Notes under the pieces: generated by a model
Databases searched by the model: none
What the model saw: only the letters and a program-made list of their open reading frames with translations
What the model was told of the DNA's origin: nothing
In this document: piece after piece, positions 12,536 to 22,386 of the stretch
Layout of the letters: every line of letters starts with the position of its first letter
Position numbering within the stretch: position 1 is the first letter of the stretch
Position numbers and translations under genes: made by a program
Virus record (IMG/VR): IMGVR_UViG_3300027704_000164
Location: 1 to 23,533 of that record
DNA length: 23,533 nt
Source of the DNA: a virus
Direction: 5' to 3' (one strand)

Positions 12536-12607
12536 ATTTGGACTGTTATTTTCTTTAGAGGATAAAAATAGCAGTTTTACATCATGCTAAGGATGTTCTA
12601 AAGGGAA

Positions 12608-13006
12608 TTAGAAGTCTTTGTTTTCTTCGGACTCTTCAAAGGCTAACGGAATATCTCCATTGCCCATGTCCAATACTTTGATCTTGTTAACGTATGTAGA
12701 CACACCATGTTGAGGATGCTTAGGCCCATGCTTCCACTGTACTCGTACTTTAGCACCTCGTGGTAGCTCTTCGCTTAACTGCATCTCTTGGCCGTCTTCT
12801 GTTAAGACACCAATATTATATCCAGACTTAAACTTACGTTGAGCTACACCTTTATAGCTCTTTACGACTACTTCAGAGTCTGCTAATTTAGTAGCTTCAT
12901 CTTGATCCATACATAGAGTGACGTTATAACCAACGTCCTGACCTTGGTACTGATCTTCTGTTAGTATGTTACTAAATGCTACATAACCTTCTGTTGCTGA
13001 AAACAT
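12608..13006 (-). CDS. Single-stranded DNA-binding protein, T7 gp2.5-like in role
   Basis: 132 aa against 232 in T7. The body is beta-rich (EGYVAFSNIL, GYNVTLCMD, KVRVQWKHG, STYVNKIKVLD), consistent with one OB fold that binds ssDNA. The tail is acidic and ends with Phe (FEESEENKDF). In T7 gp2.5 and other phage SSBs an acidic tail, with a terminal Phe in gp2.5, contacts polymerase and helicase, so this tail is the best evidence for the assignment. It is the first gene after a 198-bp gap that carries regulatory modules shared with the terminase leader, and it is likely the first gene of a replication transcription unit. Overall sequence similarity to gp2.5 is weak by eye. Confidence 0.8.
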   Translation of the reverse strand: MFSATEGYVAFSNILTEDQYQGQDVGYNVTLCMDQDEATKLADSEVVVKSYKGVAQRKFKSGYNIGVLTEDGQEMQLSEELPRGAKVRVQWKHGPKHPQHGVSTYVNKIKVLDMGNGDIPLAFEESEENKDF

Positions 13007-13039
13007 AATTCTTTACTCTCTTTTCTGATTAAGTTTATA

Positions 13040-13062
13040 GACATACCTTATGTATAGTCTAT
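13040..13062 (-). repeat. Shared block GACATACC-TTATGTA-N2-GTCTAT, copy 1
   Basis: On the + strand GACATACC, TTATGTA, two bases, GTCTAT. The same three words in the same order occur at 15632-15658, where CTAA is inserted after the first word. Both copies lie upstream of leftward genes (the ssDNA-binding protein gene and the 100-aa early gene), with the same orientation to transcription. Confidence 0.75.
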
Positions 13063-13140
13063 TGTTTTGATAGACATCACTCTATCTATAGTTCTATGGG
13101 CTCTTAAGTGAAACTCTTTTGTTTTAAACTTTAAAATATA

Positions 13141-13178
13141 TTTAAGTATTAATTCTTTAGAGTGCTTAAGTGCTTAAG
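13141..13178 (-). repeat. Shared CTTAAG/TAATAC module, copy upstream of the SSB gene
   Basis: On the minus strand this reads CTTAAG, CACTTAAG, CACTCTAAAG, AATTAATAC, TTAAA. It matches + strand 16365-16403 at 32 of 39 aligned columns with one gap, including an exact 16-mer AGAATTAATACTTAAA. Downstream of TAATAC come seven bases and then TATT, reminiscent of the T7 promoter layout (TAATAC, seven bases, TATA). Confidence 0.75.
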
Positions 13179-13204
13179 AACTGTTTTTAGTTTAGCATGG
13201 ATCA

Positions 13205-13414
13205 CTATGATAGTAAATGGTCTGATTCATTTATGTCTGTATAAAGACTTATTTCTAGACAATCATCTAATGAGGTGTCTGTATCAGACTCATAATACAC
13301 GTCTTCATCCTCTGCGTTTGCTCCTGATAGTTTGTCTCCTTGTTTAATACATTTACGACATAATTCTATATCATCATCATCTAGTAGTAGTACATCACAT
13401 GATTTACACTTCAT
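13205..13414 (-). CDS. Small acidic zinc-ribbon-like protein, 69 aa
   Basis: 69 aa from the ATG at 13414, chosen because GAGGTG lies six bases before it; an in-frame GTG three codons upstream is itself part of that ribosome site. The N-terminus carries CKSC and, after an acidic loop (LLDDDDIE), CRKC: two CxxC knuckles that could bind one zinc ion. The remainder is very acidic (AEDEDVYYESDTDTSLDD). It is the last gene of the early small-gene cluster before the SSB control region. A zinc knuckle with an acidic tail suggests a protein-interaction or transcription-modifying role, but nothing proves this. Confidence 0.65.
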   Translation of the reverse strand: MKCKSCDVLLLDDDDIELCRKCIKQGDKLSGANAEDEDVYYESDTDTSLDDCLEISLYTDINESDHLLS

Positions 13415-13432
13415 TATACCCACCTCATTACT

Positions 13433-15522: not shown

Positions 15523-15570
15523 AATTATTTCCCTGTCTCATCTGTTTATTTATTTACTTAACTTGCAACT

Positions 15571-15584
15571 ATTGTATAAACAAT
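15571..15584 (-). promoter_or_regulatory. Inverted repeat with possible -10 element before the early operon
   Basis: ATTGT, ATAA, ACAAT is a perfect 5-bp inverted repeat about 50 bp upstream of the first early gene. On the minus strand it contains TACAAT, a fair sigma-70 -10 hexamer, but no good -35 lies 16-18 bp upstream. It may be an operator overlapping an early promoter. Confidence 0.3.
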
Positions 15585-15631
15585 AATAAATCAATGCCAG
15601 ACCTATACACGACCCAAACATACTCAAACAC

Positions 15632-15658
15632 GACATACCCTAATTATGTACTGTCTAT
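15632..15658 (-). repeat. Shared block GACATACC-CTAA-TTATGTA-N2-GTCTAT, copy 2
   Basis: Same words in the same order as at 13040-13062, with CTAA inserted after the first word. It lies 110-136 bp upstream of the first early leftward gene, in the same orientation relative to transcription as copy 1. Confidence 0.75.
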
Positions 15659-15968
15659 AAAGAAACGCGCCTGTGCGAATAACATAGACAATACAACTAG
15701 ACATATCTAGATACGACATTAAGTTATCTATGAGAGACACTTTACGTCTAAGCTACATTTAGTGTCTACCCTATGCAATGTATAAGACATAGCCACAAAG
15801 CCCACACGGGAGCTTACACGGGCTCTCAAGGGTATTTATGTATACACAATAGGCTACTGTTCTAAATACGCCATCGTTGCCTGAATACGACATGGCTAGA
15901 ATACCTAAGAATACCACGCTCATGGCCTCTCTTATGTCAATTCTTTGGAGGACTTAATACTCACAAGT

Positions 15969-16075
15969 CACACTTGACACACCCAACACACCTATGCCAC
16001 ACAATACACACGGCCTGCTAGGCACACTTAGCACACCCGTGTCAACCCGTGACTATTGGGTGTGATCTAGTCACA
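15969..16075. repeat. CA-rich repeat cluster
   Basis: CACACTTGACACACCC (15969-15984) recurs as CACACTTAGCACACCC (16023-16038), two mismatches in 16. CACACCCAA (15978-15986) has an exact inverted partner TTGGGTGTG (16056-16064). CCCGTG is repeated ten bases apart at 16036 and 16046. TGTGA-TCTAG-TCACA at 16061-16075 is an inverted repeat with a 5-bp centre. The cluster could be a protein-binding array. Confidence 0.7.
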
Positions 16076-16125
16076 TTATGACGGATTAGTCGCTTATGTT
16101 GACAAATGAATGCTCATGTGCCTAT

Positions 16126-16137
16126 GGGGGGGCCCCC
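16126..16137. repeat. G7C5 tract with a 10-bp perfect palindrome
   Basis: Seven G (16126-16132) followed by five C (16133-16137); GGGGGCCCCC at 16128-16137 is self-complementary. It stands out in AT-rich DNA. Confidence 0.9.
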
Positions 16138-16192
16138 TGTGAGATGTGGAGTAATATGTATATAGGCTCATAGACACATGAGAAGGAAAATA

Positions 16193-16232
16193 GGGGAGGA
16201 GGGTATAATTAGGGTAACGGGGAGTAACGGGG
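16193..16232 (+). repeat. G-run block with tandem TAACGGGG
   Basis: G runs lie at 16193-16196, 16201-16203, 16212-16214, 16219-16222 and 16229-16232, all on the + strand. TAACGGGG is exactly repeated at 16215-16222 and 16225-16232, ten bases apart. The last four runs are separated by 8, 4 and 6 bases, close to a G-quadruplex pattern. Confidence 0.75.
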
Positions 16233-16278
16233 CAGACCTAATATTCAGACAAGCAATGTATATTTAATAGGACAGAAG

Positions 16279-16305
16279 TAGACTTTGTAGACTAAATAGA
16301 CTGTA
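16279..16305 (+). repeat. Three 9-bp iterons, TAGACT plus 3 bases
   Basis: TAGACT starts at 16279, 16288 and 16297, with spacers TTG, AAA and GTA, giving an exact 9-bp period in AT-rich surroundings. Regularly spaced short direct repeats of this type are typical binding sites of replication initiators or repressors. Confidence 0.7.
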
Positions 16306-16329
16306 TTACACTATAAGACATAATATAGG

Positions 16330-16358
16330 TTGACTTTTGACTCTAAATATGTTAGTAT
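16330..16358 (+). promoter_or_regulatory. Sigma-70-like promoter for the terminase/head operon
   Basis: TTGACT (16330-16335), 17-bp spacer, TAGTAT (16353-16358); five of six and four of six matches to the consensus hexamers. A start near 16365 would give a leader of about 280 nt before the small terminase gene, including the CTTAAG module and ATGTCTAT repeats. A host-type promoter would let late genes be read without a phage RNA polymerase. Unproven. Confidence 0.45.
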
Positions 16359-16364
16359 AAGTGA

Positions 16365-16403
16365 CTTAAGACGCTTAGGTACTCTTTAGAATTAATACTT
16401 AAA
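16365..16403 (+). repeat. Shared CTTAAG/TAATAC module, copy upstream of terminase
   Basis: Reads CTTAAG, ACGCTTAGGT, ACTCTTTAG, AATTAATAC, TTAAA and continues GA, TATA; TAATAC is followed by seven bases and TATA, the spacing of T7-type promoters. It pairs with the copy upstream of the SSB gene (13178-13141 on the minus strand). A partial third unit, ACTCTAAAGA followed by CTACTTAAG, lies at about 16431-16448. CTCTTTA also resembles an antitermination boxA. Confidence 0.7.
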
Positions 16404-16511
16404 GATATATAAAAATAATAATAAGCATTACTCTAAAGACTACTTAAGTAAATCATACGGGTAGAGCTGAATCACTAAAGTGATGAGTACTAAATCGGAA
16501 CTACCTCATTG

Positions 16512-16549
16512 GATGTCTATATCTCTTTATAGATGTCTATATGTCTATA
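16512..16549 (+). repeat. ATGTCTAT box cluster in the terminase leader
   Basis: GATGTCTATAT occurs exactly at 16512-16522 and 16532-16542, and ATGTCTATA again at 16541-16549. Two ATGTCTAT boxes are also in the SSB leader in the same transcriptional sense (13077-13070 and 13044-13037). Likely operator or regulatory RNA element. Confidence 0.65.
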
Positions 16550-16647
16550 CAGTTCACAATCCTATTATTATCACCATTACCAGTACCTAATTGGTTATGT
16601 ATCTAGAATCCCCACATTCTTAACTGTGGCCAAGAGTCTATATCTTA

Positions 16648-17118
16648 ATGAGCAACAAAGAAGAACTAAGTCCACGTACTGGTAAGCCTAAGATTAAACA
16701 TAAGGGTAGCCCATTATTATACAAAGGGATGCCTCCTTTAAATCCATCAGGTAGGCCTAAAGGAAGTGTAGGTAAATATACACAACTCTCTAGAGAACTG
16801 ATGTCTGAGAGAGGCCCTGAGATAGTCAACAAAGTATTAGAGATGGCTATGGAGGGAGATACTACATGTCTTAAGATGTGTCTAGATCGTATCTTACCAC
16901 CTAAGAGAGATGTTGAAGTTAAACATGAGGGTGGTCAGTCTATCAACATCACTGTAGCCCAATTAGGTAACAAAGCTCAAGAGGCTATAGAGCACGTAGG
17001 TGGTCAGGTCATTGAGCATAGTCTACAAGAAGCTACTAAGAAATCTAAGAAAGAAAGTAGTAAAGCATTCGATGTAATAGCATTGTCTGTATTAGAAGAA
17101 GAAGAAGAAGATGAGTGA
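16648..17118 (+). CDS. Terminase small subunit (DUF5681-like)
   Basis: 156 aa. The basic, Pro/Gly-rich N-terminus with PPLNPSGRPKGSVGKYTQL fits the DUF5681-type module (NPxGRPKGS) seen in phage terminase small subunits. Residues about 45-90 form helices (LMSERGPEIVNKVLEMAMEGDTTCLKMC in part) followed by DRILPPKRDVEV. The C-terminus is acidic (SVLEEEEEDE). Small subunits recognise the packaging site on concatemeric DNA and hand it to the large subunit. It is the first gene after the 1.1-kb intergenic region and overlaps the large subunit start by 8 bases. The ribosome site is weak (AAGAG at a long distance), so translation may be low, which fits a protein needed in small amounts. Confidence 0.82.
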   Translation: MSNKEELSPRTGKPKIKHKGSPLLYKGMPPLNPSGRPKGSVGKYTQLSRELMSERGPEIVNKVLEMAMEGDTTCLKMCLDRILPPKRDVEVKHEGGQSINITVAQLGNKAQEAIEHVGGQVIEHSLQEATKKSKKESSKAFDVIALSVLEEEEEDE

Positions 17119-22341: not shown

Positions 22342-22354
22342 TAGTTGATACCTA

Positions 22355-22386
22355 GAGGCTCCTACTACGGTAGGGGCTTCTTTTTT
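22355..22386 (+). terminator. Intrinsic terminator after the capsid gene
   Basis: An 11-bp stem (22355-22365 with 22370-22380, two or three G-U pairs) is closed by C-UACG-G, a UNCG-type stable tetraloop, and followed by six T (22381-22386). Partial termination here would raise capsid mRNA relative to downstream tail genes. Confidence 0.9.

Follow-up and report, generated by a model that had tools for sequence, protein, structure and literature searches.

The DNA analysed here belongs to an uncultured marine podophage and is a linear fragment of 23.5 kb (IMG/VR record IMGVR_UViG_3300027704_000164); "the window" denotes this whole stretch at its full length of 23,533 nucleotides. Terminase, portal, and capsid genes run rightward, and an SSB-like gene, a primase-helicase, and a family-A DNA polymerase run leftward. 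A megablast search with the window matched no named phage, and its close relatives are uncultured contigs only. The phage's capsid protein shares 28-34% identity with those of A-4L, LPP-2, and Pf-WMP3, distant cyanopodophages that as a group are not known to have a T7-type polymerase. The features relevant to the two operons are as follows.

12564-12596, minus strand: H-type pseudoknot followed by T5, just 3' of the SSB gene (ACAUC-CU-UAGCA-U-GAUGU-AAAAC-UGCUA-UUUUU)
12608-13006, minus strand: SSB-like gene (Gp2.5-like; PHROG 112, E 2.6e-5)
13037-13088, minus strand: small SSB-leader hairpins, with the ATGTCTAT boxes as their 3' arms (TAGATA/TGTCTA at 13088-13071; ATAGAC/GTCTAT at 13062-13037)
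13090-13182, minus strand: module copy 1, the inverted repeat H1 starting at about +1 of the SSB transcript, recognised by the 16-mer, the predicted fold, the arms, and the arm-swap comparison; contains CTTAAG at 13178-13173, 13170-13165, and 13108-13103 and the 16-mer at 13156-13141
13189-13217, minus strand: sigma-70-type promoter of the SSB/replication operon, TTTACT-N14-TGC-TAAACT (-35 at 13217-13212, -10 at 13194-13189)
16330-16358, plus strand: sigma-70-type promoter of the terminase/virion operon, TTGACT-N14-TGT-TAGTAT
16365-16449, plus strand: module copy 2, with CTTAAG at 16365 and 16443, CTTAGG at 16374, and the 16-mer at 16388-16403
16457-16505, plus strand: H2, the second terminase-leader element (ACGGGTNGAGCT..CACTAAAGTG..CGCAACTACC)
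16513-16548, plus strand: three ATGTCTAT boxes of the terminase leader, partly arranged as dyads (TATAGATGTCTATA)
16604-16640, plus strand: H3, the third leader element, a stem-loop (TAGAATCCCC..GTGGCCAAGAGTCTA) 7 nt before the small-terminase start codon
16648-17118, plus strand: small-terminase-like gene (Pfam DUF5681, E 6.9e-7), first gene of the late operon, with TerL following at 17111
22354-22381, plus strand: hairpin and T-run resembling an intrinsic terminator, within the late operon and 3' of the capsid gene

A preliminary description, made from the letters of the window, had reported that the SSB and terminase leaders share a set of elements and had read them as one control cassette reused in two opposite operons. 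All of the named elements (16-mer, CTTAAG, TAATAC, and ATGTCTAT boxes) are present in both leaders where it placed them, and the two leaders do point in opposite directions, 3.2 kb apart. The exact 16-mer AGAATTAATACTTAAA occurs twice (13141-13156, minus strand; 16388-16403, plus strand); CTTAAG starts at 13103, 13165, 13173, 16365, and 16443; and ATGTCTAT lies at 13037, 13070, 16513, 16533, and 16541. Measured start to start, TAATAC precedes the next CTTAAG by 43 and 50 nt in the two leaders, and TAATAC-N7-TATT/TATA is found in both copies. Over the whole window, CTTAAG is not enriched (8 observed vs 12 expected) and ATGTCTAT is (7 observed vs 1.5 expected). When the 100 nt that follow each -10 box are aligned locally, the likeness extends well past the 16-mer, with about 46 of 50 aligned positions matching and a score of 53, whereas none of 500 shuffles scored above 33, so the resemblance of the copies is not chance. 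The corresponding copies of the L044 phage match at about 56 of 62 positions (score 75 vs a shuffle maximum of 28). The cassette reading is supported by these homologous modules, which occupy an equal promoter offset and are retained in several relatives. As to its recurrence in the intergenic regions of relatives, the architecture is present but the exact letters are not kept. The bare 16-mer was rejected as a collection-wide probe; among the matches listed, most were unrelated AT-rich DNA.

Directly upstream of both copies are sigma-70-like promoters that the preliminary description did not include and that change the interpretation of the module. The SSB promoter is found in all relatives with the region as TTKAYT, a 17-nt spacer, and TGCTAAACT (or TGCTACACT/TGCTACCCT); TT(T/G)A(C/T)T-N14-TGC-TAAACT or a near variant stands upstream of the SSB leader. 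The terminase promoter reads TTGACT-N14-TGTTATAAT in most relatives. In region-holding relatives with TerL identity of at least 83%, TTGACT-N14-TG(T/G)TATAAT with a 17-nt spacer stands before the small-terminase leader; the -10 box of the window is TAGTAT. The TG-extended -10 promoter adjoins the module in more than 15 TerS-leader contigs and in every SSB leader found. From the -10 box to the first CTTAAG there are 6 nt in the TerS leader and 10 nt in the SSB leader; both copies begin just past the -10 box, and the module is therefore the beginning of each transcript. In a sister clade (L032-L040), a late promoter of the form TTGCAA-N14-TGGTATAAT lies about 400 nt before TerL and is followed immediately by GGGGTATAGAACCTCCCTTTTT, possibly a start-site attenuator that replaces the long hairpin.

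These promoters bear on the suggestion that TAATAC-N7-TATA/TATT marks promoters for a T7-like single-subunit RNA polymerase. The letters do match in both copies of the window, as in T7-type promoters, but the TAATAC box lies within the transcript, at about +25 to +35, with host-type promoters just upstream, and only the closest relatives keep TAATAC and the TATA after it. The search for a phage polymerase gene that the preliminary description had called for found none: the PF00940 profile (T7-type RNA polymerase), which recovered its T7 control, gave no match in 11 related contigs, the longest of 42 kb and some possibly incomplete. Since the sigma-70 promoters are kept, TAATAC is not, and no polymerase was found, we reject the T7-promoter reading; it is largely refuted, and its residual likelihood, which would call for a gene hidden beyond the 23.5-kb fragment, is close to nil.

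The CTTAAG sequences on either side of TAATAC occupy opposite arms of a long inverted repeat. In the SSB copy, AGTTCT, CTTAAG, and ACTCT face AGAGT, CTTAAG, and AGAACT; in the terminase copy, the arms CTTAGGTACTCTTTAGA and TCTAAAGACTACTTAAG (16374-16390 and 16432-16448) are 88% complementary. The predicted fold places a long, imperfectly paired hairpin (20-30 pairs) at the very 5' end of the transcript and is more stable than dinucleotide shuffles in both copies (z -3.2 for copy 1 and -3.7 for copy 2), although these folds are predictions on AT-rich sequence. Nearly all SSB leaders likewise exceed their shuffles (z -2.9 to -4.7, with one at -1.75). Among TerS leaders, this holds for L022, L023, and the window clade (z -3.2 to -4.0); those of L017 and L018 fold only weakly better than shuffles, and those of the roughly ten contigs of clade L006-L016 show no significant hairpin (z about 0.1-0.9 for most). 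A second hairpin is predicted within a few bases of H1 in SSB leaders and in some TerS leaders. Column covariation in a MAFFT alignment of H1 was unusable because the sequences are too divergent to hold a structural register, and pairing was therefore assessed by swapping arms between phages. Own arms average -21.9 kcal/mol, compared with -15.6 kcal/mol for swapped arms, and after removal of near-duplicates the difference is significant for SSB leaders (p 0.009), TerS leaders (p 0.0009), and both together (p about 2e-5). The letters of the arms change while the complementarity of the long arms persists (e.g., CUCUUCAGU/ACUGAAGAG).

The arm-swap result is the same on the antisense strand, which gives the same p value and is on average 1.7 kcal/mol more stable, so what the data show is a maintained dyad, which may act as an RNA hairpin or as a DNA repeat; this equality is the main uncertainty for action at the RNA level. 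Inverted repeats are also easier to obtain here because CTTAAG is itself palindromic. As the main rival reading, the module may be a DNA operator over the start site, in which a cluster of CTTAAG/CTTAGG and TTAA-repeat binding sites would let a phage regulator control both promoters together. Equal structure on the antisense strand would suit such an operator, as would the overlap of the module with +1 of two promoters and the conservation of 5' CTTAGG-nAC, which surpasses that of any other piece in the two leader classes. A candidate regulator also exists: in six of six phages, the gene directly upstream of the SSB promoter (13205-13423, minus strand, in the window) encodes a small four-cysteine protein (72 aa; CxxC-x12-CxxC) with an acidic tail. 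Against the operator, the early genes tested yielded no recognisable DNA-binding regulator, and the complementarity of the long arms is kept through letter changes beyond what operator spacing needs. We regard the operator as possible, if on balance doubtful. A 93-aa protein considered as a D5-like regulator was discarded, its weak match not being reproduced in homologues.

The SSB and TerS copies of one phage outscore pairs drawn from different phages (exact p 0.006 with six phages that have both leaders and 0.017 with five), and the signal comes mainly from two lineages, the L044 phage and the window clade, each with its own shared letters. In these comparisons, the copies show concerted evolution in at least two phages. 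The pattern is compatible with co-evolution with a trans-acting partner, which a protein bound to an operator would also produce, or with repeated conversion between the copies. In L025, both leaders fold, but their sequences are no more alike than background. Recent duplication or gene conversion between leaders, with no function of their own, would account for very high likeness confined to the window clade and the L044 phage, but that likeness arose with different letters in the two lineages and at equal promoter offset, which makes this account very unlikely.

The terminase leader continues with H2, whose sequence is nearly invariant in more than 20 contigs and has no Rfam match; a hammerhead-like reading of it (GTGATGAG..) was abandoned for lack of Rfam support, and neither the window nor the terminase leader gave any Rfam match above the gathering score. 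H3 (also given as TAGAATCCCC..GGYCAAGARTCTA) is conserved, with no clear Shine-Dalgarno sequence, and may serve translation or packaging control. In relatives, the counterpart of the ATAGAC/GTCTAT arms of the SSB leader is ATAGG/CCTAT. A long imperfect hairpin at the extreme 5' end could also be an mRNA processing or stability element, either an RNase III site or a 5' protector of both long operons that leaves the polymerase unaffected; the RNase III sites of T7 early mRNA are comparable in kind. Such a hairpin explains neither the within-phage likeness in the loop part nor the nearly invariant additional H2 element, and we consider it improbable.

By AT content, the modules rank in the top 1.1% and 0.3% of 90-bp windows, and one lies within the replication operon, as might be expected of transcription-primed replication origins; in T7, the primary origin is AT-rich and follows a pair of promoters. 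The GC-skew turns at 15.5-16.3 kb merely track gene direction, however, and the 0.8-kb non-coding stretch there is at least as good a candidate, leaving little likelihood that the modules are origins. This stretch (15523-16330) contains GGGGGGGCCCCC and CTCATGTGCCTATG/CATAGACACATGAG arms; its G-run/C-run and ATAGGCTCATAGRCACATG are kept in relatives, and it is a candidate packaging site or origin.

Terminator-like structures follow two genes of these operons. The hairpin after the capsid gene is present in the window and most relatives, and the SSB gene is followed by a terminator or a T-run pseudoknot. The co-occurrence of capsid terminator and leader was dropped as evidence for antitermination, as relatives in which no such leader was recognised have capsid terminators too; antitermination is thus compatible with these terminators and neither required nor proven by them, and dosage control would suffice.

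The pseudoknot after the SSB gene has the consensus NNNC-CU-GAGCA-N-GNNN-(N)AAAAC-UGCUC, with copies in the window, L018, L044, L047, L233, L248, L255, L264, L265, and others. Among 12 sequences taken from different phages, standard pairs fill 98.3% of the pair cells and 6 of 10 pairs vary on both sides; 0 of 500 shuffles equal this, and sliding the partner abolishes the signal. The aligned sequences were picked by motif, which in itself accounts for some of the conservation at unpaired positions. With a less strict pattern, 250 paired copies (206 distinct) turn up in the examined loci, part of which were retrieved with the motif itself, against 3 in reversed sequence; the matches listed from a viral scan are a lower bound. 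Of the 206 distinct copies, 168 lie no more than 120 nt downstream of an open reading frame, commonly at 5-9 nt, and several stand just upstream of tRNA genes (in L282, L287, L288, L290, and L293, some 10-20 nt before tRNA-like gene starts). One locus (L356) holds up to five copies. Named phages of mycobacteria, lactobacilli, Paracoccus, Arthrobacter, and Synechococcus carry the pseudoknot, as does a microvirus, mostly in gaps after genes, and the T-run version is absent from 84,980 cellular genomes. Because most copies have no T-run, the pseudoknot is not simply a terminator. In Rfam, the window has no match to GP20-b (RF03003), and the pseudoknot fits no family above the cut-off. The 5' half of the GP20-b model does align to the pseudoknot in Lactobacillus phages, at 26.2 and 24 bits, under the gathering score of 36.2. 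GP20-b models one pseudoknot stem and a second hairpin, whereas the present copies are without that hairpin and stand, unlike GP20-b, beside many other genes in unrelated phages. In phage NatCom_3357 (L275, 601-783), the pseudoknot ends directly before a strong match to the Rfam DUF2800 RNA (RF02960, 136.6 bits). The pseudoknot may be an RNA element that is widespread in phages and mostly undescribed.

For the shared module, we propose that the two copies, as the first ~60-90 transcribed bases of the leftward SSB/replication unit and the rightward terminase/virion unit, act in cis as RNA leaders that in some way affect transcription, a reading to which we assign a probability of about 0.45. 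Its comparative basis comprises the conserved promoters, position, copy homology, retained complementarity, and concerted evolution in at least two phages; the step of action is its weak part. Host RNA polymerase would start both units from the sigma-70-type promoters, and the inverted repeat, which starts approximately at the start site, would form a long hairpin in the RNA, with a second one after it in most leaders. The nascent leader would then modify the polymerase as it leaves the promoter, by antipausing or antitermination, so that both gene blocks, with the terminator-like structures after the abundant products SSB and capsid, would be read through.

The closest parallel in layout is phage HK022, in which two similar put RNAs of two stem-loops each (~70 nt) lie in two operons, with putL just downstream of PL (PMC9378689). 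The module resembles put in having two related promoter-proximal leaders in two phage operons served by host polymerase from sigma-70 promoters, and two stem-loops are predicted in SSB leaders and some TerS leaders, though not in clade L006-L016. It differs from put in that it is AT-rich, begins with a very long imperfect hairpin, and would also control late virion genes. The HK022 put RNA suppresses pausing and termination via the zinc-binding domain of beta', and we liken the module to it by layout rather than by sequence; we do not claim membership in the put family, and a search of an HK022 stretch for the put pair as an inverted repeat found only IS ends. Put-like antitermination as such is a tentative and somewhat doubtful reading. 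The other familiar parallel is lambda nut: the module shares the early leader position, and the terminase leader of the window does contain CTCTTTA, which the preliminary description had likened to boxA. That likeness fails in relatives, where the boxA letters are unconserved; unlike nut, the module has no short hairpin of the boxB type, and no N-like antiterminator gene was recognised among the early proteins scanned in this incomplete fragment.

We found no described equivalent in the open-access literature searched. The furthest-reaching version of the proposal, that the leaders form a protein-free RNA family with no sequence relation to HK022 put and convert host polymerase at the replication and virion operons of a podophage lacking its own RNA polymerase, with copies kept alike within each phage, we judge unlikely. 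If true, it would be valuable, as very few protein-independent antitermination RNAs are known; if the element is instead an operator, it points to a novel phage regulator. Two co-evolving elements at the starts of the two transcripts offer a concrete, testable handle on how T7-like phages without an RNA polymerase time the expression of their replication and virion genes.
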